From Thiomicrorhabdus xiamenensis (GTDB lineage Bacteria > Pseudomonadota > Gammaproteobacteria > Thiomicrospirales > Thiomicrospiraceae), in the NCBI RefSeq assembly GCF_013282625.1, contig NZ_CP054020.1, positions 2,480,001 to 2,544,000 on the forward strand: a stretch of 64,000 nucleotides of DNA. Direction: 5' to 3'. The translations under genes were made by a program, and so were the position numbers. The notes under the pieces are model-generated. The model saw only the letters and a program-made list of their open reading frames with translations. It did no database searches and had not been told where the DNA came from. Position 1 is the first letter of the stretch, and every line of letters begins with the position of its first letter. Of the stretch, positions 3,587-41,147 are shown one piece after another.

Positions 3587-4453
3587 TTATGCTTCTCGAT
3601 TTTTGAGTAAAACCGCTTGTTCGATATGCGCTCGAGACGCGAGGAAAACCTCGGTTACTTTCTGAAGCAAAGATAAGGTTATTGGTAAATTTTCTCCGGC
3701 CGCTGCGCTTTCTAATTCCTCAAACACGGTTTGCATTTCAACAGCACCAATATTTTTCGCGGTTCTCTTTAAGGTAGCCGCCAGCTTTTGGACGCTCTCT
3801 AACTCCCCTGAATCAACCATATTTTGTAAAAAATTAACCGTATCTCTATCGTAAAGTTTCAGAAATTTCTCCAGAACTTTGATATAGATTAAAAAGTCAT
3901 TATTAAATCGGGAAGTCGCCCCTTTAACATCAAATCCCTGCAAGATATCGATGAGTTCTTCCTGCGAGATTTGGAGTGGTTTAGCGACTTTGCAAAGGGT
4001 TGGAATGTTCTTTTCTGATGATGTTACCCAGCGTGAGAGCGTCGAATAGAGTCTTTTCGGATCAATGGGTTTAGAGACAATATCATTCATTCCTACATTC
4101 AAACATTCCGTATTGTCGCCGTTCATCGCACTTGCCGTTAACGCAATAATAACCATTTTTGAAATGCGAGGGTCACTGCGAATTAATCTGGTGGCTTCAT
4201 AACCATCCATCACTGGCATCTGTACATCCATTAATACCGCATCAAATTTGGTTTCAAGAATTTTGTCAATTGCCTCACGGCCATCATCTGCAACACTGAC
4301 AATTAAGTTGACGTGTTCCAGCAATTCTTTTACAACATCCTGATTAATTTTATTGTCTTCTACTAACAACACATGAATGCCGCGGAATTTCTCTGCATAC
4401 CAGGCTTTATCATAAGATGCACTCTCGGCAACGACGGTCTTTTCTTCTTGCAT
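3587..4453 (-). CDS. response regulator: receiver plus degenerate Hpt domain
   Basis: 288 residues. A complete receiver spans about 26-145 (VLLVEDN, phospho-acceptor D76 in MDVQMPVMDG, T106, K128). The C-terminal ~110 residues look like an Hpt bundle, but its signature reads AATLKRTAKNIGA. The phospho-His is Ala226 and the following Gly is Arg230, so it cannot accept phosphate. The domain pair resembles the tail of a hybrid kinase such as BarA without its kinase. The dead Hpt may serve as a docking or dimerisation module (inference). It converges with the intact Hpt gene. Confidence 0.8.
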   Translation of the reverse strand: MQEEKTVVAESASYDKAWYAEKFRGIHVLLVEDNKINQDVVKELLEHVNLIVSVADDGREAIDKILETKFDAVLMDVQMPVMDGYEATRLIRSDPRISKMVIIALTASAMNGDNTECLNVGMNDIVSKPIDPKRLYSTLSRWVTSSEKNIPTLCKVAKPLQISQEELIDILQGFDVKGATSRFNNDFLIYIKVLEKFLKLYDRDTVNFLQNMVDSGELESVQKLAATLKRTAKNIGAVEMQTVFEELESAAAGENLPITLSLLQKVTEVFLASRAHIEQAVLLKNREA

Positions 4454-4712
4454 AAAACAACAACACTGATGATTTTTTTCATCATACCACCTGAACTAAA
4501 AACCAAAATAATTTCAGTTTTATATCTCGAATTCTACTCGTCTTGATTCTGTCTTTTTAAACATGACCTGCCAATTCCATCACCACAGGACTTTATCCTC
4601 TTAATTCACGTATTAATCCCCGCGGATTTGATTTGAATCTGGCAGCGCCCACGGCAATAGGATAAGATTTGACCTAAATAATTGCTGAAATACAAAAGAT
4701 ACAAGAAACCCT

Positions 4713-5562: not shown

Positions 5563-5901
5563 ATGAAACAAATCAAAGCGATCATAAACCCTCACAGATT
5601 AACTGATGTACGTGAAGCTCTAACAACGTTAGGAATAAACGGCCTTACAGTGACGGAAGTGAAGGGATATGGTCGTCAGAGAGGGCACAAGGAGATCTAT
5701 CGTGGTACCGAATACGAAGTCACATTTGTCCCTAAAATCATGCTTGAGCTGGTCGTTCTCGATGAGCAATTGGAGGAGATTATCACAACCATTTCTTCCA
5801 GTGCCCATACAGGCAAACTCGGGGACGGAAAACTCTTCGTATCCCCGGTCGAAAACGCGATCAGAATCAGGACCGGTGAGTCTGGCGAAGCCGCTTTATA
5901 A
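5563..5901 (+). CDS. glnK: nitrogen regulatory protein P-II (GlnK)
   Basis: 112 residues, normal for the family. The T-loop carries the uridylylation tyrosine Y51 (YRGTEYEV), and the B- and C-loops (AHTGKLGDGK; IRIRTGE) match P-II. It senses 2-oxoglutarate, ATP/ADP and glutamine status, and as GlnK it blocks the ammonium channel encoded 52 bases downstream. The ribosome site GGAGG is strong. Linkage to amtB identifies it as GlnK rather than GlnB. Confidence 0.95.
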   Translation: MKQIKAIINPHRLTDVREALTTLGINGLTVTEVKGYGRQRGHKEIYRGTEYEVTFVPKIMLELVVLDEQLEEIITTISSSAHTGKLGDGKLFVSPVENAIRIRTGESGEAAL

Positions 5902-5953
5902 CTTCACTTCTAATTTCAATTATGAGGGAACAAATTAATTGAGGTAAAACTTT

Positions 5954-24051: not shown

Positions 24052-24495
24052 TTACCAGGCTTTGTAAGGTAGGAATTTACCGTTCATGGTTACCACAACG
24101 CGGTCACCTAGTGGGTTCTCTTCTTTATCGATATCCATCGAGAAATCGATCGCACTCATAATACCGTCGCCGAATTTTTCGTGAATCAGCTCTTTCATCG
24201 TCGGACCGTAAACACCGACGATTTCGTATAGACGATAGATCAATGGATCTGTCGGAACCGCTTTTTCCCAACTCTTATGCGGGAATGCCTGCAATGCTTC
24301 AGCAACATCGGTTCCCAGACCGAGTAATTCTGCAACTTTGGTTGCTGGCTCTGCGTCCAGGTGGTTCATACCTAAACAAGCAGAGGTGGTATAAACTTCA
24401 CTTAGGCCTGCTGCCGCCGCGATATCAGTCCATCCAAGGCCCTTTTCATTTTTAGCCAATACAATTGCTTCAGTCATTGCTACTTTAGTTAACAT
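24052..24495 (-). CDS. cynS: cyanase (cyanate hydratase)
   Basis: 147 residues. The catalytic triad of the family is present as R88, E91 and S114 (YRLYEIVGVYG; SAIDF), an 8-residue offset from E. coli R96/E99/S122. The N-terminal half is the usual helical domain. It converts cyanate plus bicarbonate to ammonia and CO2. I chose ATG 24495; the 13 residues upstream lack family character and carry the GAGGGA ribosome site. It is divergent from the OsmC-like operon and preceded by a sigma-54 promoter, so nitrogen-limited expression is likely. Confidence 0.96.
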   Translation of the reverse strand: MLTKVAMTEAIVLAKNEKGLGWTDIAAAAGLSEVYTTSACLGMNHLDAEPATKVAELLGLGTDVAEALQAFPHKSWEKAVPTDPLIYRLYEIVGVYGPTMKELIHEKFGDGIMSAIDFSMDIDKEENPLGDRVVVTMNGKFLPYKAW

Positions 24496-24544
24496 AGGTT
24501 TATCTCCCTCTTTGTATAAAATCGTTAAAAGCACTGACCTTAAC

Positions 24545-24559
24545 GCATTTCTCGTGCCA
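24545..24559 (-). promoter_or_regulatory. sigma-54 promoter of cynS
   Basis: On the minus strand TGGCAC-GAGAA-ATGC: a consensus -24 box and GG/GC exactly 10 bases apart. The predicted start is near 24533, 38 bases before the cynS ATG. Confidence 0.78.
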
Positions 24560-28904: not shown

Positions 28905-30128
28905 TTAGAATTTAACTTCACCCCAAATCCATAGCTTGTCGGTATCAACCGCATATTCGTCTGCTGAATAAGAAGCATACTTAACACCTACAGTATAGTT
29001 TTTGCTCAGCTTTTTCGCTGCCAAAAGGTCGTATTCCGTACCGTAGTCTGTGTTACCCACATCGGAGCTGAAATCATGATATGCGGCAGCCAGCTTCATA
29101 CCGAATGCTTTACCAGATACTTTCAGGTAGTTGTCAACCAGACCGTCTGCAGGCGTTCCACCAACAGGACCGATAAACATATCCGCCCAACCGTTATACA
29201 AGTGAACTGTACCAAGAGGCGTTTGGAATGCGCTTGTACCGTCACCACCCAGTTTTTCCTGACCGGCTAGAACCGTAATACCTTTCATAGCAAGACCCAA
29301 TTCTGCACGCGTGTAGTCGCCGCCAATATCAAGGTCTTCGCTGTCTTTGTACTCTTGCTGATCAGCATATTCCAAATGGTAAACAAGCTTCATGCTTTCA
29401 CTCAAAGCGGTTTTGCCGGCAAAACGAATACCCATGGTTTTGCTGTCCGCACCGGTTTCATAATCCAGGAAGTAGCCGTATGCACTTAGCTTACCGAATG
29501 GAATGCCTGCAAAATCAATTTTACCCGCATGGCTTTTCATCTCAATATCCGCACCAACCGGATTGAAGACATTATTGATGTAAGCATAGTTCAGGTTGAT
29601 TTTCATCGGTAGAGTCGCATTCAGACTCGCCCCAGTATAAACCTGCTCTTGCTGGCGCCAGCCAACATTACCCAGGAAACGCGTATCCATAATGATTCGC
29701 TGCTTACCGGCTTTGATTTTAAGTCCGTCTGTTTGATAACCGACCCAGTACTGGTTCATAGTCGTCATATCCGGATCAAGAACCACGGCTTTTGTGTTGT
29801 CACCACCCGCTTCTGGACCCGCCGGTACAAAGTAATCACTACGATCATAAGCCGAAGTATTCGACATTTCGACAAAGCCGTTAAAGCCTTGATAGGTACC
29901 GGTCAAATAGCCTAAACGGGTACGCAAAGTCAAAGCACCTGCATCGTCTTTACCATCCTGCTCGACACCTTCATAACGAAGACGTGCATCGATGCTCGGC
30001 GTTCCGCCTGTCAAAGCTTCGGTGAAGCTCTCTGCCGCCGCCATATTCGGCGCCAAAAAAAGTGAAGCACTTAAAGTTGAAAGACCCAAAACAGAGTACA
30101 TGTGTCGGGTAAGAGTGTTTTGTTTCAT
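28905..30128 (-). CDS. outer-membrane porin-like beta-barrel protein
   Basis: 407 residues. A signal peptide with a hydrophobic core ends near MAAAES; alternating beta-strand pattern follows, closing with a terminal aromatic (WGEVKF), the usual outer-membrane assembly signal. It resembles general porins/alginate-export-type barrels; substrate is unknown. Genes around it are an import and catabolic set, so it may admit the substrate of the flavoprotein module. The ribosome site is CAGGAG. A sigma-54-like element and a strong palindrome lie upstream. Confidence 0.82.
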   Translation of the reverse strand: MKQNTLTRHMYSVLGLSTLSASLFLAPNMAAAESFTEALTGGTPSIDARLRYEGVEQDGKDDAGALTLRTRLGYLTGTYQGFNGFVEMSNTSAYDRSDYFVPAGPEAGGDNTKAVVLDPDMTTMNQYWVGYQTDGLKIKAGKQRIIMDTRFLGNVGWRQQEQVYTGASLNATLPMKINLNYAYINNVFNPVGADIEMKSHAGKIDFAGIPFGKLSAYGYFLDYETGADSKTMGIRFAGKTALSESMKLVYHLEYADQQEYKDSEDLDIGGDYTRAELGLAMKGITVLAGQEKLGGDGTSAFQTPLGTVHLYNGWADMFIGPVGGTPADGLVDNYLKVSGKAFGMKLAAAYHDFSSDVGNTDYGTEYDLLAAKKLSKNYTVGVKYASYSADEYAVDTDKLWIWGEVKF

Positions 30129-30444: not shown

Positions 30445-32106
30445 CTAACCCAACCCCAGTTTTTTGAATCGATAATTATACTGCCTCGGCGTCATATTTA
30501 ACATCCTTGCCGCATGACTTTTATTACCGTGTGCTCTCTCCAGAGCCTGCAGCAGAATATCTTTTTCAGATTCACTGACTTTCCAGTAATTGCGCTTGAT
30601 TTCATCGCTGCCGTTTCTGGACATAACCTGCGGAGCAAATGTCGCCTCATATTGTGGCTGCGGTTCCATGCGCGTCGATATCTCGTCGTTCACCGAAATC
30701 GCTTTGACCTCCTCCGGCTGCTCGGTCGCTTCGCCATTAAAGACAATTCCACTCTCCTCGCGGATAATGCGTCGAATCAGTCGGTCGGTAATCATCTGAC
30801 CGTCTTCAGCCAATAACACCGCCCGCTTGATAATATTTTCCAGCTGACGGATATTCCCCGGCCACTCATAAGTTTCCAGGAACGCAATAGCCCCGCGATC
30901 AAAAATCACATTGGTGTGATACTCCTGATTAGCCTGATTTAGGAAATGGCGGGCCAACAAGCGAATATCCCCGTCACGCTCGCGCAGAGGCGGCAACTCG
31001 ATAGGAAAGACATTTAAACGATAGAATAAATCCAGACGGAAGTTGCCCTCGTTCACCGAGGTTTGCAGGTTTTTATGCGAGGCGACGATGATTCGCACAT
31101 CGACCGGTATCGGCTTGTTTGAGCCGACGCGGGTAATAGTTCTGTCTTCAAGTACACGTAGCAGCTTAGCCTGCAAGCCGAAATCCAGATCCCCGATTTC
31201 ATCCAGGAACAAGGTTCCGTGATGCGCCATCTCGATTTTCCCCGGCTTGGTCTGAGTGGCACCGGTGAAGGCACCCTTTTCGTGCCCGAAGAGCTCAGAT
31301 TCCAGCAGTTCCAGCGGAATCGCCGCACAGTTAATCGCGATAAAAGGTCCGTCTTGGCGGTTTGAAGCCATATGCAGCATACGCGAGAACTTCTCTTTAC
31401 CGGTTCCGGATTCACCTTTCAAAAGCACCGTCACTGAAACATTCGCCGCACGCGCCGCCTTGCTTAAGGCGCCCATCACGGCAGGGCTTTCACCGATAAT
31501 ACCGTATTGACTTCCCTGACTGAGCGCCACAGCACGCAGCTGCTCATTCTCTTCTTTGAGAACCTGAGTCTGCTTTTCAAGCATGGCATTGACCGAAAGA
31601 ATCTCACTGATAAAAATGGCAATCAACTTAAGGATGCTCAGATCTTTATCCAGCGCACGAGAGCGGTTTTTCAGACGGTTAACGGCTAAAACCCCGATGG
31701 TTCTCCCTTTACGGAGAATCGGCACGGCGATAAACGCGACCGGTTCCTGCGGCAGCGTCGAACGGTCGACCGTACGGCACAGGTAATCCTCTTCCAGATC
31801 GATATTGGGAATAATAATCGGCATTCCCATTCTCATTACCTTACCGGTAATCCCTTCGTTGTCTGCAAACCGGCTGCGGGCGATTTCCACTTCGGTCAAA
31901 CCAAACGCGTAAGCGGTATAGAGAATCGGTTCACTCTTCTCTCTCAGCAGTACCCTGCCGCGGTTCAATCCCATCTGACGGGAAATCAGACTCAAAATGC
32001 GCACTATCGCCTGTTCCGGTTCATTGGCGCGCTCAATCTGTTCAGCGGCTTCCTTAATCACCACATATTCAGAATGTTCTGCAATATCGAGTGCTTCCAA
32101 TGCCAT
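30445..32106 (-). CDS. sigma-54-dependent activator, NifA-type (GAF-AAA+-Fis HTH)
   Basis: 553 residues: N-terminal GAF domain (about 20-175), a central AAA+ domain with GESGTGKEKFSR, the sigma-54 contact loop GAFTGA, and Walker B LFLDEIGDLD, and a C-terminal Fis-type HTH (GNKSHAARMLNMTPRQYNYR). The start has a strong AGGAGG. It lacks the Cys-rich linker of oxygen-sensitive NifA and no nitrogenase genes are here, so it should control something else. The palindrome by the porin gene and the sigma-54 promoter of cynS are candidate targets (inference). Confidence 0.9.
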   Translation of the reverse strand: MALEALDIAEHSEYVVIKEAAEQIERANEPEQAIVRILSLISRQMGLNRGRVLLREKSEPILYTAYAFGLTEVEIARSRFADNEGITGKVMRMGMPIIIPNIDLEEDYLCRTVDRSTLPQEPVAFIAVPILRKGRTIGVLAVNRLKNRSRALDKDLSILKLIAIFISEILSVNAMLEKQTQVLKEENEQLRAVALSQGSQYGIIGESPAVMGALSKAARAANVSVTVLLKGESGTGKEKFSRMLHMASNRQDGPFIAINCAAIPLELLESELFGHEKGAFTGATQTKPGKIEMAHHGTLFLDEIGDLDFGLQAKLLRVLEDRTITRVGSNKPIPVDVRIIVASHKNLQTSVNEGNFRLDLFYRLNVFPIELPPLRERDGDIRLLARHFLNQANQEYHTNVIFDRGAIAFLETYEWPGNIRQLENIIKRAVLLAEDGQMITDRLIRRIIREESGIVFNGEATEQPEEVKAISVNDEISTRMEPQPQYEATFAPQVMSRNGSDEIKRNYWKVSESEKDILLQALERAHGNKSHAARMLNMTPRQYNYRFKKLGLG

Positions 32107-34652: not shown

Positions 34653-35495
34653 TTAAGACGCTTGCTGTAACGAGTCGTCAACCGGTGGTTTTACTTCGCG
34701 CTTAGGCACTTCCAGACGCTCGAATGGTTTTTTCTGTTTGGCTTGATCGATCTTTTCGAATTCGGCAAACAGCTCGTCTTTAAGGGTGATAAATTCGCCG
34801 CTGTTGCGGTCACGAGGGTAATCAAGCGGAATATGTTTTTCTCCAACGATCTGACCCGGGTTGTGGCTCATGATGACAACCTGATCGGCCATGGCTACCG
34901 CTTCTTCGATATCGTGGGTAACCAATACCATGGTGATATTCTGATCGTGACAGATCTGCGCTACTTCGGTTTGCAGAGCGGTACGGGTAAAGGCATCCAG
35001 GGCAGAGAAAGGTTCGTCAAGCAACAGAACTTCCGGCTCGGTTGCCAGTGAACGCGCCAAAGCAACACGCTGCTGCTGACCACCGGACAGATCCTGAACG
35101 TTTTTATCTTTATGCTCACTTAGACCGACCATATCAAGCAACTCTTCCACTCGATCTTTTTTGTGCTTATAGGTTCCGGCGAAAACCAGACCCAGAGCGG
35201 CATTTTCACGCACTGTCATCCATGGATACAGGGAAGGCTTCTGGAACATCATGTTCCATTTAGCGCTTGGCTTGGTTACAGTATGCGCGCGGATACGCAC
35301 AGCGCCTTCGGTCGGCATTAATAGACCCGCAACCATTTGCAGCAAGGTGGATTTACCACAACCGCTTCGGCCGATAAGAGCAGTCAATTGTCCCTGAGGG
35401 ATCGAAAGGTTGATGTCATCCAGGGTCGGCATTTCCTGTTTGCGGTTGTAATAATGCGTCAGGTCGGAAATCCAGATGGGAGATGCGGTTGACAT
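34653..35495 (-). CDS. ABC transporter ATP-binding protein, NrtD/SsuB type
   Basis: 280 residues: Walker A GRSGCGKSTLL, signature LSGGQQQRVALARSL, Walker B LLLDEPFSALD, and H-loop VTHDIEEAVAMAD. It powers the importer with the two genes downstream. ATG 35495 follows AGGAG. It is first in the operon; the leader region upstream has a TACAA-TT-TTGTA palindrome but no properly spaced sigma-54 motif. Confidence 0.9.
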   Translation of the reverse strand: MSTASPIWISDLTHYYNRKQEMPTLDDINLSIPQGQLTALIGRSGCGKSTLLQMVAGLLMPTEGAVRIRAHTVTKPSAKWNMMFQKPSLYPWMTVRENAALGLVFAGTYKHKKDRVEELLDMVGLSEHKDKNVQDLSGGQQQRVALARSLATEPEVLLLDEPFSALDAFTRTALQTEVAQICHDQNITMVLVTHDIEEAVAMADQVVIMSHNPGQIVGEKHIPLDYPRDRNSGEFITLKDELFAEFEKIDQAKQKKPFERLEVPKREVKPPVDDSLQQAS

Positions 35496-35772
35496 AGAAG
35501 TTCTCCTAAAATTTTCATTCAATAACAGAGAGATACAAACATATGCCTTACCAAATAATTTTTATACCTTTTAAATCAACAACTTAATAATTACAAACCC
35601 CGTTATTTAACAACATTGCCAACAGATATAGTGCAAACATGCACCAATATATACATTTATTTACAATTTTGTATAAATTGAATTGAATTGTTTATCTTTG
35701 AATGTCTTTTCTCTGTGACTCGCCAGAAAGCACGCATTTATGCACCTGAAACAACCTCTGAATAGCCCCAAA

Positions 35773-37662
35773 TCAGGACGCCTTAAAGCCATACTTGTCG
35801 ATATTGAATTTTTTAAGCTTGGAATTCAGGGTCGTTGGATTAATCTGCAGCAATTCCCCGGCGCCGCCTTTACCGAATATTTTGCCTCCGGATTGTTCCA
35901 GAGCCTGAATAAGATTCTCCCGCTCCCGACTGCGTAATTCGTTATAGGTGAGCACCCCCTGAGTCTGATCCGATACGCCATCCCCATCCGATACCTGAGT
36001 GACGGGAGAAAAATCTAAATTAAAAACCAGCTGCCCGTCGTGCGCGAGAATAACCGCCCGTTCAATAACATGAATCAGCTCTCGAATATTGCCGGGCCAG
36101 TGATACGCCTGCAGCTGATAAATATGCTTCACCTTCAACTGCAGACCGACCTTGGCGTATTTCTCGCAGGCCAGTTTAAGAAAGTGCTGAGCAAGTACTG
36201 GAATATCATCTCCTCGCTGTCTGAGGGGAGGGGACTCTATAGGAAAGACATTCAAGCGGAAATACAGATCTTCACGAAAGGCTTTACGTTTGACCTCTTC
36301 CAGCAAATTTCGGTTGGTCGCGGCAATAATGCGCACATTCACCTTACGTGTACGGGAGTCGCCCAAGCGTTCAAACTGCTGCTCCTGCAACACCCGCAAC
36401 AACTTGCTTTGCAGTTCATAAGGAATCTCACCGATCTCATCCAGAAAAATCGTCCCGCCATCGGCCAGTTCAAAGCGCCCGACCCGATCGCCAACCGCTC
36501 CGGTAAAAGCGCCCTTGGCATGCCCGAAAAACTCGCTTTCAAACAGGTCTTTCGGAATAGAGGCGCAATTTACACGAATCAACGGCCGATTCTTGCGCAA
36601 GCTGTTTTCATGGATTGCGCGGGCAATCAATTCTTTACCGGTACCGGATTCACCGGTAATCAGGACATTAGCATCGGTTGGACTGACCAGGCGAATCTGC
36701 TCGACAATTTTCTGCACCGCCTCGCTGGTACCGACAATTTCGTTGAAGTGATAGACCTCTTTATAGGCTTCCTGCAAATAGGCATTCTCCAACTCCAATC
36801 TACGCTTCAGCTCCTCCATCTCTTTGAGCATCTGACCGATTCTCGCTTCAGCTCTTTTGCGCTCGCTCACATCCCTGAAAACAATCACTGCTCCGACGAC
36901 CTGCCCTTCATCCATAATCGGCGTACTGACATATTCGACCGGAAAGGCTTTTCCCTGCTTGTTCCAGAAATACTCGTTTTGCACCTGTTTGGTCCGCCCA
37001 TCCTGAAAGGCCGAATAGATATGACAGGATTCCACATGATAATGCGAGCCGTCATGATGGCTGTGGTGGATCATCCGGTGCATGTTTTTCCCAATCAACT
37101 CATCCGCTTTCCAGCCAAGTATCTCTTCGGCTACCGGGTTCAGAAAAGTCGCATTTCCGTTGATATCGACGCCATACACCCCCTCTCCGACAGCGTTCAG
37201 GATCAGACTATTGGTCAGTTCGAACTCTTCAAAAAATCGCTCAACAGTCTTCCACTCCTGCAACCCTTTACGATGCAGTTCATTTACCGTCAGAAACCGG
37301 TTTTGATTCTGCAGCGCCTGCTTGGACAGCAGACGCAATAGAATATTGCGCTCCCGCCCCTCTATCAGACTTGCCGCAACCAGCAACTCTTGCTCATCTC
37401 CCTTTTCGGTACGAATCGAAAGATCACCCGACCAGGCCGTTTTCTTATGCAGAACCTCCTGAGAGAAAACGATAAATTCCGGCCAACATCCGGAAAAAAT
37501 CCGATCCGCAGAGATACTCCGCGACGCCCCCTGTCGCGCCTCAAAAGCGAGTAAATTGCGCGCTTGAGCATTAATCAACTGCACCTCGTTATCTTCAGGA
37601 TCGATCAATATCAGCGCGTCCGGACTCTGCTCGAAAAGTAAAAGCTCCAGCGAATTTCTCAT
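35773..37662 (-). CDS. sigma-54-dependent activator with two PAS domains (PAS-PAS-AAA+-Fis HTH)
   Basis: 629 residues. Two PAS-like domains (about 5-100 and 155-275, the second followed by a short coiled coil) precede an AAA+ domain with GESGTGKELIARAIHE, GAFTGA and IFLDEIGEIP, then a Fis-type HTH (SGGKIFGKGGAGELLQINPTTL). It has no receiver, so it senses a ligand or redox signal directly. I chose ATG 37662 (GGAG upstream) rather than GTG 37695. It is divergent from the second ABC operon, which has a good sigma-54 promoter and paired upstream sites, so it is its likely activator. Confidence 0.9.
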   Translation of the reverse strand: MRNSLELLLFEQSPDALILIDPEDNEVQLINAQARNLLAFEARQGASRSISADRIFSGCWPEFIVFSQEVLHKKTAWSGDLSIRTEKGDEQELLVAASLIEGRERNILLRLLSKQALQNQNRFLTVNELHRKGLQEWKTVERFFEEFELTNSLILNAVGEGVYGVDINGNATFLNPVAEEILGWKADELIGKNMHRMIHHSHHDGSHYHVESCHIYSAFQDGRTKQVQNEYFWNKQGKAFPVEYVSTPIMDEGQVVGAVIVFRDVSERKRAEARIGQMLKEMEELKRRLELENAYLQEAYKEVYHFNEIVGTSEAVQKIVEQIRLVSPTDANVLITGESGTGKELIARAIHENSLRKNRPLIRVNCASIPKDLFESEFFGHAKGAFTGAVGDRVGRFELADGGTIFLDEIGEIPYELQSKLLRVLQEQQFERLGDSRTRKVNVRIIAATNRNLLEEVKRKAFREDLYFRLNVFPIESPPLRQRGDDIPVLAQHFLKLACEKYAKVGLQLKVKHIYQLQAYHWPGNIRELIHVIERAVILAHDGQLVFNLDFSPVTQVSDGDGVSDQTQGVLTYNELRSRERENLIQALEQSGGKIFGKGGAGELLQINPTTLNSKLKKFNIDKYGFKAS

Positions 37663-37719
37663 TGCGTTATGACTCCGAAATGAATACCGACTCACCTACA
37701 GCAACCAGCAAACCAAAAC

Positions 37720-37773
37720 TACGAAATTTCCGAAATCCGACTATGAAAATTCCCAAAATCATGAAATTTCGTA
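37720..37773. promoter_or_regulatory. paired upstream activator sites before the second ABC operon
   Basis: TACGAAATTTC (37720-37730) and its exact inverse GAAATTTCGTA (37763-37773). Each contains the palindrome GAAATTTC, centres 40 bases apart (about four helical turns). They lie about 100-150 bases upstream of the predicted sigma-54 start. Confidence 0.6.
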
Positions 37774-37842
37774 ATTAGACGAGGACACGACAAAGTGACT
37801 AAAATCCTGTCCTTTCAAACACTTAAAAAAAATTCTATGCAA

Positions 37843-37857
37843 TGGCACACGCACTGC
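37843..37857 (+). promoter_or_regulatory. sigma-54 promoter of the second ABC operon
   Basis: TGGCAC-ACGCA-CTGC: perfect -24 box, GG/GC 10 bases apart. The predicted start is near 37869, with the first gene at 37946. Confidence 0.82.
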
Positions 37858-37945: not shown

Positions 37946-39421
37946 ATGTCTTTCAAAAGCTTGAACAACCCATTTGATGCCAACAAAAGTTTGCTTCATA
38001 CCTCTGACTGCAGCTGCCCTATGTGCCAGGCGGAAAAAGCCGGCCCTGCGATGAGCGAAAAAGAGAAACAGGCGTTTATCGAACAGAAAGCCGATCAGTC
38101 GGTACAGATAAAACAGTCGGCGGACCATAACGCCGTAGACGATTCTATGCCGAGCAATTCGGAAGAGATGATCGATCGCGCAGTGGAAAGCGCCGTCGTT
38201 CGTTCCGTATTCGGTCACAACGATTTCCAACGCCGTTCTTTCCTGAGCATGATCGGAAAAGGAACCGCTGCCGCGGTACTGGGAAGCGTATTCCCGATGG
38301 AGGCCGCCAAAGCCGCAATGAAAGAAACCATGGGACTGGGCAAGCTGGAGAAAAGCAAACTGAATATCGGTTTTGTCCCGATTACCTGCGCAACGCCGAT
38401 CATTATGGCCCACCCGATGGGCTTCTATGAAAAATACGGCCTGGATGTCGATGTCATTAAAACCGCCGGTTGGGCAGTTGCACGCGACAAATCTCTGGCA
38501 AAAGAGTACGACGCCTCACACATGCTGACCCCTATGCCGCTGGCGATGTCGATGGGTGCCGGTTCAACAGCCAAACCGTTCATCATGCCGACGGTCGAAA
38601 ACATCAACGGCCAGGCGATCGTCCTGCATAACGACCACAAAGACAAACGCGATCCGAAACAGTGGAAAGGGTTCAAGTTCGGTGTTCCGTTCGAGTATTC
38701 AATGCACAACTTCCTGCTGCGCTACTATGTCGCCGAACACGGATTGGATCCGGATAAAGATATCCAGATTCGCGTCGTTCCGCCGCCGGAGATGGTCGCT
38801 AACTTGCGTGCCGGTAACCTGGATGGCTACCTGTCACCGGATCCATTCAACCAGCGTGCCGTATGGGAAAAAGTCGGCTTTATCCATACTCTGACCAAAG
38901 ACATCTGGGAAGGCCACCCTTGCTGTGCCTTTGCCTGCTCGAAAGAGTTTGCCGTACAAAACCCGAACACCTACGGCGCACTGCTGCGTTCGATTATCGA
39001 TGCCACCGAGTACTCGGCCAAGCCGGAAAACCGCAAAGAAATTGCCGAAGCGATTTCGCCAAAGAACTATCTCAACCAACCGGTTCCCGTCGTTCAGCAG
39101 GTTCTCACCGGACGCTATGCCGACGGTTTGGGCAGCGTAATGAACATTCCTGACCGCATCGACTTTGATCCGTTCCCATGGCACTCGATGGGCGTCTGGA
39201 TTCTGACGCAAATGAAACGTTGGGGCTACATCAAGGGCGATGTCGATTACCAGAAAATCGCCGAAGAGGTTTATACCGCTGCCGAAACCGGTCGCGTTAT
39301 GAAAGAACTGGGATACGAGCCGCCGGCCAAAACCTATGAGAACTACACCATTATGGGTAAAGAGTTCGATTACACCCAGCCGGAAGCCTATATCGACAGC
39401 TTCAAGATCAAACGCACCTAA
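37946..39421 (+). CDS. Tat-type ABC substrate-binding protein, CmpA/NrtA family, with N-terminal Cys cluster
   Basis: 491 residues. The cytoplasmic leader holds C22, C24 and C27 (DCSCPMC) and a long charged stretch, then a twin-arginine signal (FQRRSFLSMIGKG). The mature part is CmpA/NrtA-like (GFVPITCATPIIMAHPMGFY; GHPCCAFACSKEF). CmpA-NrtA proteins bind bicarbonate, nitrate, nitrite or cyanate. I chose ATG 37946; the in-frame GTG at 37928 adds six residues. The neighbouring cyanase makes cyanate one reasonable candidate, but the ligand cannot be read from sequence. Confidence 0.87.
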   Translation: MSFKSLNNPFDANKSLLHTSDCSCPMCQAEKAGPAMSEKEKQAFIEQKADQSVQIKQSADHNAVDDSMPSNSEEMIDRAVESAVVRSVFGHNDFQRRSFLSMIGKGTAAAVLGSVFPMEAAKAAMKETMGLGKLEKSKLNIGFVPITCATPIIMAHPMGFYEKYGLDVDVIKTAGWAVARDKSLAKEYDASHMLTPMPLAMSMGAGSTAKPFIMPTVENINGQAIVLHNDHKDKRDPKQWKGFKFGVPFEYSMHNFLLRYYVAEHGLDPDKDIQIRVVPPPEMVANLRAGNLDGYLSPDPFNQRAVWEKVGFIHTLTKDIWEGHPCCAFACSKEFAVQNPNTYGALLRSIIDATEYSAKPENRKEIAEAISPKNYLNQPVPVVQQVLTGRYADGLGSVMNIPDRIDFDPFPWHSMGVWILTQMKRWGYIKGDVDYQKIAEEVYTAAETGRVMKELGYEPPAKTYENYTIMGKEFDYTQPEAYIDSFKIKRT

Positions 39422-39440: not shown

Positions 39441-40271
39441 ATGTTGAAATCCCTAAAAGTGAAATCTGCGCTGCTTTCCATCATCTTTCTTGTCATTCTG
39501 CTTGGAATCTGGGAAGGCGCCAACCAGGCGCCGACCGATACCAAGCCGCTAACGGAATATGAGATGTTGATGGGAGGCGCCTCTCAGGAGGCCCGAGTAC
39601 CGCCGCCATCGGAAGTAATCGAACTCGGATTCAAAGAACTCAGCGACCCTTTTTATGATGCGGGTCCGAATGATAAAGGGATCGGCATACAACTGGGCTA
39701 CTCTATCTACCGGGTTATGGTCGGCTTTCTGCTGGCCGCGGCGATCGCCATCCCGATCGGTTTTCTGATCGGCATGTCGCCGCTGATGTATAACGCCTTG
39801 AATCCATTTATTCAGGTGTTACGCCCTATTTCGCCTCTGGCATGGATGCCGCTGGCACTGTTTATCATTAAAGACTCGGAAATCTCGGCGATTTTCGTTA
39901 TTTTCATCTGTTCGATCTGGCCAATGCTGATCAACACCGCCTTCGGTGTAGCGAATGTCCGCAAAGACTGGATCAACGTGGCTCGCACTCATCAGCTCAG
40001 TCCGCTGCAAACGGCTATGCAGGTCATCCTGCCTGCTGCTGCACCGACTATTCTGACCGGGATGCGTATCTCCATCGGGATTGCCTGGCTGGTTATCGTT
40101 GCGGCAGAAATGCTGGTCGGTGGAACCGGTATCGGTTATTACGTTTGGAACGAATGGAACAACCTGGATCTCGCGAGCGTGATTTTCTCGATCTTCATGA
40201 TCGGGGTAATCGGCATGCTACTCGATATGATGCTGGCTTATGCAGCCCGCTGGGTAACTTATCAGGAATAA
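39441..40271 (+). CDS. ABC transporter permease, CmpB/NrtB type
   Basis: 276 residues with about six membrane helices. The N-terminal ~90 residues carry a periplasmic-looking insert (SQEARVPPPSEVIELGFKEL), as in NrtB/CmpB. The EAA-type block is ARTHQLSPLQTAMQVILPAAAPTILTG. It works with the binding protein 19 bases upstream and the ATPase downstream. Confidence 0.9.
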   Translation: MLKSLKVKSALLSIIFLVILLGIWEGANQAPTDTKPLTEYEMLMGGASQEARVPPPSEVIELGFKELSDPFYDAGPNDKGIGIQLGYSIYRVMVGFLLAAAIAIPIGFLIGMSPLMYNALNPFIQVLRPISPLAWMPLALFIIKDSEISAIFVIFICSIWPMLINTAFGVANVRKDWINVARTHQLSPLQTAMQVILPAAAPTILTGMRISIGIAWLVIVAAEMLVGGTGIGYYVWNEWNNLDLASVIFSIFMIGVIGMLLDMMLAYAARWVTYQE

Positions 40272-40301: not shown

Positions 40302-41147
40302 ATGAAACACCACTTTTTACAGATCGAGAATCTCAAAAAAAGCTACCCGGGGCCGGATAAAGACAGTGAACTGGTCATTTTCGAAAACGCTAACTTCACC
40401 ATTGATAAAGGTGAATTCGTCTGCGTCATCGGTCACTCAGGTTGCGGTAAATCCACGATTCTCAACATTCTCGCCGGACTTGACGAGGCCAGCGACGGCA
40501 TCGTTATTATGGACGGTAAGGAAATCTCCGGCCCGAGCCTGGAAAGAGGCGTGGTTTTCCAGAACTACAGCCTTCTTCCGTGGCGAACCGCTCTGCAAAA
40601 CGTCACCTTCGGCGTTCAGGCCCGCTGGCCTGAATGGTCCAAAGAGAAAGTACAGGAACACAGTCTGAGATTCCTTGAACTGGTCGGACTGAAAGGTGCC
40701 GAAGATCGCAAGCCATCACAGCTTTCCGGCGGAATGCGTCAACGGGTCAGTATTGCACGCGCCTTTGCGACCCAGCCGCAGCTGTTATTGATGGACGAGC
40801 CTTTCGGTGCACTGGATGCCTTGACGCGCGGTGTCATTCAGGAAGAGTTGATCAAAATCTGGGAGGAGAGCAAACAGACCGTGTTTATGATTACCCACGA
40901 TGTCGATGAAGCGATTCTTCTCGCGGATCGGATTCTATTGATGACCAATGGACCGAAAGCCAGAATTGCCGAATCGGTCAAAGTCAGCATTCCGCGTCCG
41001 AGAAAACGCACCGAGATTATTCACCATCAGGACTATTACAAGATCCGTAACCATCTGGTCGACTTTCTGGTCGATCGCTCCAAGCAGGACATCTCCGTCC
41101 TCAATCCCAAAGACGCCTCTCCTAAAATCATTGATCTGGCCAGTTAA
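40302..41147 (+). CDS. ABC transporter ATP-binding protein, CmpD/NrtD type
   Basis: 281 residues: Walker A GHSGCGKSTIL, signature LSGGMRQRVSIARAF, Walker B LLMDEPFGALD, H-loop ITHDVDEAILLAD. It completes the second importer. It is a single-ATPase NrtD/CmpD subunit without the regulatory NrtC binding-protein fusion. A terminator follows. Confidence 0.92.
   Translation: MKHHFLQIENLKKSYPGPDKDSELVIFENANFTIDKGEFVCVIGHSGCGKSTILNILAGLDEASDGIVIMDGKEISGPSLERGVVFQNYSLLPWRTALQNVTFGVQARWPEWSKEKVQEHSLRFLELVGLKGAEDRKPSQLSGGMRQRVSIARAFATQPQLLLMDEPFGALDALTRGVIQEELIKIWEESKQTVFMITHDVDEAILLADRILLMTNGPKARIAESVKVSIPRPRKRTEIIHHQDYYKIRNHLVDFLVDRSKQDISVLNPKDASPKIIDLAS

Follow-up and report, generated by a model that had tools for sequence, protein, structure and literature searches.

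A conserved array of three predicted CynF sites and a putative sigma-54 promoter upstream of cynABD in Thiomicrorhabdus xiamenensis

In P. pseudoalcaligenes CECT5344, expression of the cynFABDS genes is induced by cyanate and depends on CynF, as described in the accessible portion of PMC6627978. A related arrangement is that of NitA, a Fis-family sigma-54 regulator encoded divergently from nitBCDEFGH, the nit1C cluster of cyanide assimilation (PMC11049912, available excerpts). In the NorR/norVW system of Escherichia coli, the three NorR sites are required and act as a scaffold for an oligomer of higher order, probably a hexamer (PMC2941729 and PMC4987338, available excerpts), and for FhlA of E. 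coli the consensus CATTTCGTACGAAATG has been given (PMC4987338, same excerpts). No published CynF operator was found in the open-licence literature, including the accessible portions of PMC6627978, PMC11049912 and PMC5744179; Figure S1 of PMC6627978, which concerns the promoter region, was outside the scope of this search.

The locus described here is located in a stretch of 64,000 nucleotides of Thiomicrorhabdus xiamenensis DNA, referred to as the window. As in CECT5344 (PMC6627978, accessible portion), a divergent gene for a sigma-54 activator of the Fis type adjoins cynABD, and a putative sigma-54 promoter precedes cynA. In contrast to CECT5344, in which cynS ends the operon, cynS of the window is 13 kb away and has a sigma-54 promoter-like site of its own. 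The activator has a PAS - AAA+ - Fis-type HTH architecture with a GAFTGA motif in the AAA+ domain (Pfam matches: PAS, Sigma54_activat, AAA_lid_14, and HTH_8, the last of which is weak, with a score of 20.2 and a cut-off of 22), and its gene is divergent from the cynABD operon with its sigma-54 promoter. Homology identifies the activator as CynF, which controls cyanate assimilation as a sigma-54 activator, and the operon as cynABD. An earlier note on this DNA had called the operon CmpA-like, which is correct for the transporter family (CmpA/NrtA), but the operon is the one for cyanate, and the array of sites upstream of it also serves cynS and nit1C genes in relatives. The region between cynF and cynA is very probably the control region of cynABD, in which CynF would occupy three sites, form a hexamer, and switch on the sigma-54 promoter in response to cyanate.

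Several other genes surround the locus. Directly downstream of cynF, on the minus strand from 35522 to 32488, is a further ABC operon of the NitT/TauT type, with genes for an ATPase, a binding protein, and a permease. A gene for a GAF-type NifA-like sigma-54 activator (30445-32106) is also located downstream of cynF and is adjoined by a 407-aa ORF without a Pfam match (28905-30128, minus strand). Just past cynD, on the opposite strand, is a gene for a NifX/FeMo-cofactor-domain protein (PF02579; 41215-41544, minus strand).

Predicted operator sites and promoter between cynF and cynA

An 11-mer, TACGAAATTTC, is present at 37720-37730, and its inverted copy, GAAATTTCGTA, at 37763-37773. These paired sites and the TGGCAC-N5-CTGC promoter had been pointed out in the earlier note, and all of them were found in place. 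The distance of 40 bases between centres that it gave applies to the 8-mer GAAATTTC (37723-37730 and 37763-37770), whereas the 11-bp copies have their centres 43 bp apart. The two inverted copies it described are real, but they mark the outer members of a set of three, and the unit is a 14-bp palindrome, TACGA-N4-TCGTA, of which each 11-mer is a part (Table 1). The spacing is 22 bp from site 1 to site 2 and 18 bp from site 2 to site 3, and the start of site 3 is 83 bp from the start of the sigma-54 promoter, which is similarly placed in relatives.

Table 1. Coordinates of predicted regulatory sites and genes in the window
Feature	Position	Strand	Description
Operator site 1 (predicted), nearest cynF	37720-37733	.	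TACGAAATTTCCGA; palindrome, 14 bp
Operator site 2 (predicted), middle	37742-37755	.	TATGAAAATTCCCA; degenerate; missed in the earlier note
Operator site 3 (predicted), nearest promoter	37760-37773	.	CATGAAATTTCGTA; palindrome, 14 bp
Sigma-54 promoter -24/-12 (putative)	37843-37857	+	TGGCACACGCACTGC; TGGCAC-N5-CTGC
cynF orthologue, activator	35773-37695	-	640 aa; PAS, sigma-54 AAA+, Fis-type HTH
cynA, CmpA/NrtA-type substrate-binding protein	37946-39421	+	Pfam NMT1_2, E 5.6e-91; start at ATG 37946 used, GTG 37928 possible
cynB, permease	39441-40271	+	TIGR01183 (nitrate permease family), 230 bits, above cut-off
cynD, ATPase	40302-41147	+	TIGR01184 (nitrate ATPase family), 317 bits, above cut-off
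cynS, cyanase	24052-24534	-	PF02560, PF21291; ATG about 24495
Sigma-54 promoter-like site before cynS, separate	24545-24559	-	TGGCACGAGAAATGC

Taken singly, GAAATTTC is of ordinary frequency in the window (4 occurrences, 3.05 expected). As a pair, GAAATTTC-N26..40-GAAATTTC, it is present only once in the 2.59 Mb genome, and the reversed-pattern control gave 0. The promoter is the sole match to TGGCAC-N5-YTGC in the window (0.22 expected; present in 20 of 100 shuffles). With a matrix trained on alphaproteobacterial loci (see below), sites 3, 1, and 2 rank 1, 2, and 16 among the 63,987 positions of the window, and the scores of sites 1, 2, and 3 with the full matrix are 12.1, 5.9, and 16.3. The score of the triple is 33.3 with the alpha-trained matrix and 34.3 with the full matrix. 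No CynF-type triple was found elsewhere in the window, the best other score being -4.0 (alpha-trained matrix). In the genome, the outer pair with at most two mismatches is found at 4 places, with the triple at the cynA locus only. With at most three mismatches, the outer-pair pattern is not enriched in the genome (33 matches versus 51 in the reversed control), and none of the 4 exact single TAYGA-N4-TCRTA sites in the genome belongs to a triple.

The three-site array is conserved and tied to the regulator, not to the target gene

Relatives were surveyed as the best 80 of 582 loci in the genome collection. These 80 fall in Alpha- and Gammaproteobacteria, and the closest activator among them is that of Thiomicrorhabdus sp. 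6S3-12 (94%). In the best 80 of 582, a cynA relative is the divergent neighbour in 71 loci and cynS in 4, with neither gene in that place in 5; cynS occurs somewhere in 67 loci, and cynA and cynS are both present in 63. Alignment by eye and then by script gave an operator consensus of the 14-bp palindrome in three copies per upstream region. Counted from cynF outward in 88 distinct loci, the spacings are 22/17 (n = 38), 21/17 (n = 24), 22/18 (n = 10), 23/17 (n = 9), 21/18 (n = 5), and two others (n = 1 each). Loci L054 and L058 were left out throughout (contig too short). The copies L081-L083, L085, and L091 were excluded from the 88-locus counts, and L081-L083 were kept among the 62 gammaproteobacterial rows, 3 of which duplicate the window or L001 locus.

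The summed matrix, built from 74 loci after exclusion of those with fewer than 30 of 42 letters, contains 15.8 bits; the cut-off of 30 letters was also applied in training the alphaproteobacterial matrix. All 93 of the 93 long-enough upstream regions outscore each of 1,860 dinucleotide shuffles (top shuffle 4.2), a comparison that is partly circular because the matrix was trained on 74 of those loci. In another test, a matrix trained on 27 alphaproteobacterial loci was scored on the 62 gammaproteobacterial rows. In 58 of the 62, the score was at least 17 (median 39.1; L001, 27.7), and the highest control score, over both strands of 600,462 further bases of the gamma loci, was -2.0. The conservation proposed in the earlier note as a check on the sites is thus present where activator and promoter are. 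In a count made without any matrix, the upstream regions of 78 loci (53,483 bases) contain 145 copies of ACGA-N4-TCGT, as against 4 in the remaining 968,032 bases; with any other spacer length from 0 to 10, no more than 6 copies are present upstream.

Four gamma rows score low with the alpha-trained matrix (L028, -3.7; L027, 4.4; L075, 5.7; L015, 8.1). L015, L027, and L028 have TACGC..GCGTA-type variant arrays at the usual spacing, and in all three activators the recognition helix is followed by an R-W pair (RIKRW or RIRRW), which is possibly another specificity change. L075 is a Pseudomonas gingeri locus with a CynF/NitA-like activator. Upstream of position 5944, it has two good sites that are 41 bp apart; no recognisable middle site and no good sigma-54 match were found, and neither cynA nor cynS is nearby.

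It could be supposed that only the outer two sites act, as a classical enhancer pair, with the middle site as a relic. The degenerate middle site of the window and of L001, as well as the two-site arrangement of L075, would agree with this. However, the middle site equals the others in most relatives, with the core letters ACGA/TCGT each conserved at ∼0.89-0.93 (74 loci), so we regard a two-site enhancer as unlikely and consider all three sites as the operator.

The near-consensus sigma-54 promoter noted earlier downstream of the sites recurs in the relatives. At a threshold of at least 8 of 10 letters, it is present downstream of the array in 84 of the 88 distinct loci, compared with 5% of 880 shuffled stretches; at 9 of 10 letters, the figures are 65 of 88 loci and 0.6%. 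A good match is absent in L021, L059, L069, and L075, in L059 because the contig ends there. Of the 84 loci, 50 have the cynA promoter 79-85 bp from site 3, and 25 have it 70-72 bp away. Helical phasing was considered as an explanation, as the distance classes (61; 70-72; 79-85; 93-96; 113) are approximately one turn apart. The classes follow taxa, and the best period is 11.5-12 rather than 10.5, so no weight was put on it.

Site 1 of the window starts 25 bp upstream of the cynF GTG at 37695, which would suit an array that chiefly represses cynF, with activation of cynA secondary. This is extremely improbable, as the distance between site 3 and the promoter is restricted to a few classes, and CynF is indispensable as an activator in P. 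pseudoalcaligenes (PMC6627978, accessible portion). With site 1 positioned 25-60 bp upstream of the cynF start, some self-regulation of cynF is likely alongside the activation of cynA.

The array goes with the regulator, whatever the target gene. It is retained where the divergent target is cynS alone (L008, L013, L045, and L050; 4 of the best 80 of 582 loci), and it precedes nit1C (nitrilase) genes in L061 (nitrilase, radical SAM, acetyltransferase, AIR synthase; array at 5883-5937) and in L191, L195, and L196, which are Acinetobacter plasmids annotated with the same nit1C gene order as L061 (arrays near 4403-4456). Of 15 plasmid records with a CynF homologue, 6 were analysed, and 5 of these 6 loci have the triple (scores of 37.2 to 47.9), 2 of the 5 being cyn loci (Bosea, Methylobacterium). 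The sixth, L194, has no triple; its regulator, of 522 aa, was aligned only from residue 142, and no nitB/nitC is listed. The array was not found at L126, in which a cynA that is 63% identical to that of the window has a different sigma-54 activator beside it (best score -4.0), or at three nitC clusters around which the examined DNA contains no CynF homologue. In the genus/family set, all 13 of 13 genomes with a full-length cynA (at least 74% identity) also have CynF (at least 55%).

These observations bear on whether the sites might belong to a different regulator of the cyn promoters, such as a nitrogen regulator, with CynF binding elsewhere. Ammonium represses the pathway in P. pseudoalcaligenes (PMC6627978, accessible portion), so a nitrogen regulator may act somewhere. 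However, the array accompanies CynF-like genes across cynA, cynS, and nit1C targets, was not found at those cynA and nitC loci examined that lack a CynF-like neighbour, and depends on which recognition helix the adjacent activator has (see below), and no NtrC-like TGCAC-N5..7-GTGCA was found in the intergenic region. Binding of the array by another regulator is therefore very unlikely. The sites are best assigned to the divergent PAS-type activator, as the earlier note had it, with binding by CynF predicted from the sequence.

The cynS gene of the window is the only cyanase match in the genome, on the same chromosome as cynABD. No CynF-type sites were found upstream of it, and its control by CynF is not supported, the top upstream matrix score being -1.4. 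As cynS has its own promoter-like site and no CynF sites upstream, CynF may not control the whole pathway here, and cynS may be controlled by another activator, for which the GAF-type one at 30445-32106 is a candidate. A sigma-54-like site is located within 90 bp of the start of the cyanase match in 19 of 30 cyanase loci checked. A second motif, TTGT-N12-ACAA, precedes 10 of 20 separate cynS genes (0.55 expected) and is treated as a lead; it was not found in the cynS region of the window or in the 34653-35522 operon.

Recognition helix and the letters of the sites

A held-out set of 47 further rows was obtained from 767 sampled genomes in two overlapping samples, with a triple score of at least 22 taken as positive. 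Where the helix contains PTT, the triple is present in 27 of 29 distinct places (exceptions: L208, 9.6; L234, 4.6), several of which are the same species as training loci, with the pairs L222/L006 and L208/L063 identical in the tree. Rows with other helices have the triple in 0 of 15 cases (highest score -3.5), and no HTH was aligned in row L242. Judged from these sequences, the recognition helix predicts the presence of the array.

The letters of the sites also vary with the helix. In the window clade, residue 619 is Asn (helix INPTTLNSK) instead of Lys, and 12 of 24 half-sites read ATGA, compared with 7 of 504 in other loci, the loci within a clade not being independent in these counts, so that a Fisher value computed from them does not serve as a probability. 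The Acinetobacter NitA proteins also have Asn at the equivalent position, and 4 of their 6 half-sites read ATGA. ATGA half-sites are seen under KPTT helices too, in the 7 of 504 above and in 4 of 162 half-sites of the PTT held-out places. In a tree built without the HTH by a quick method, after near-identical rows had been thinned, the two Asn groups are apart, and at least two changes are forced by well-supported branches; in the grouping, L062 (KSTT) was placed in the ST/NT group by a text rule, and L089 (KPMT) was kept apart. At least two separate changes of residue 619 to Asn appear to have taken place, each accompanied by a shift from ACGA to ATGA in the sites. As there are only two such events, the link between residue 619 and palindrome positions 3/12 is a specific residue-to-base prediction and no proof.

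Sister activators with a KPSTLTYR-type helix are accompanied by CACAA/CTCAA-N4-TTGTG sites in L237, L238, L239, L243, and L215, with spacings of 22 and 17 in L243 and L237, 17 in L238 and L239, and 23 in L215, and the motif occurs as single sites in L240 and L241. Because CACAA-N4-TTGTG was derived from the same loci in which it was then counted, it is a lead only.

A more general scheme, to which we give slightly less than even chances, is that the CynF/NitA family has a fixed three-dimer geometry of ∼22 and then 17-18 bp, and a single recognition helix sets the letters: K/R-PTT would read TACGA..TCGTA, N-PTT would read TAYGA..TCRTA (with two origins), and the KPSTLTYR sister group would read CACAA/CTCAA..TTGTG at 22/17. 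If this is true, then a common enhancer grammar and a simple recognition code would underlie both cyanate and cyanide assimilation, and the fixed geometry would reflect the placing of three dimers to close a hexamer.

Proposed mechanism and comparison with known systems

The loci themselves show a conserved array that goes with the regulator, together with a promoter, and they suggest how the control region may work in this species. Three CynF dimers would bind side by side, one on each of the sites in Table 1, and the three dimers so placed would close into an AAA+ hexamer. The N-terminal PAS part would sense cyanate, directly or via a derived signal, and the hexamer would remodel the sigma-54 RNA polymerase waiting at the promoter, so that the cyanate transporter would be turned on.

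The predicted CynF operator is precise and falsifiable, and it extends to NitA, the regulator of cyanide assimilation, so that further CynF/NitA targets become predictable. NitA-type proteins are inside the CynF family in the tree, next to L061, L206, and L075 (98*), and the nit1C loci L061, L191, L195, and L196 have arrays of the CynF kind, like the cyn loci. The nit1C and cyn loci differ in the target genes and the presumed signal, and the nit1C promoter is 113-115 bp from the start of site 3.

The FhlA consensus contains TTTCGTA/TACGAAA, which it has in common with CynF half-sites, but the FhlA half-sites are arranged the opposite way. When the two E. coli HTHs were compared, that of FhlA was closer to CynF than that of NorR (34% over 44 residues). 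An FhlA-type reading of the sites was rejected, given the reversed half-sites and the absence of any score above -1.9 with the CynF matrix on two E. coli FhlA target regions.

The arrangement resembles that of NorR/norVW (PMC2941729 and PMC4987338, available excerpts), which also combines a divergent activator, three tandem enhancer sites, and one sigma-54 promoter. In the E. coli norVW sequence, the GT-N7-AC sites are 21 and 24 bp apart, and the promoter is 66 bp past the start of the third site. The CynF consensus is TACGA-N4-TCGTA and not GT-N7-AC, with spacings of about 22 and 17-18; the sensor of CynF is a PAS domain, whereas that of NorR is a GAF/NO domain, and the HTH domains barely align. 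As its sites are not of the GT-N7-AC type, the CynF locus is no NorR system, although it would work like one. In summary, the region upstream of cynABD contains a real, conserved regulatory array, and a three-enhancer sigma-54 promoter is of a kind already known. It can be compared with NorR across two classes of bacteria, and CynF probably works as NorR does, with its own letters and spacing.
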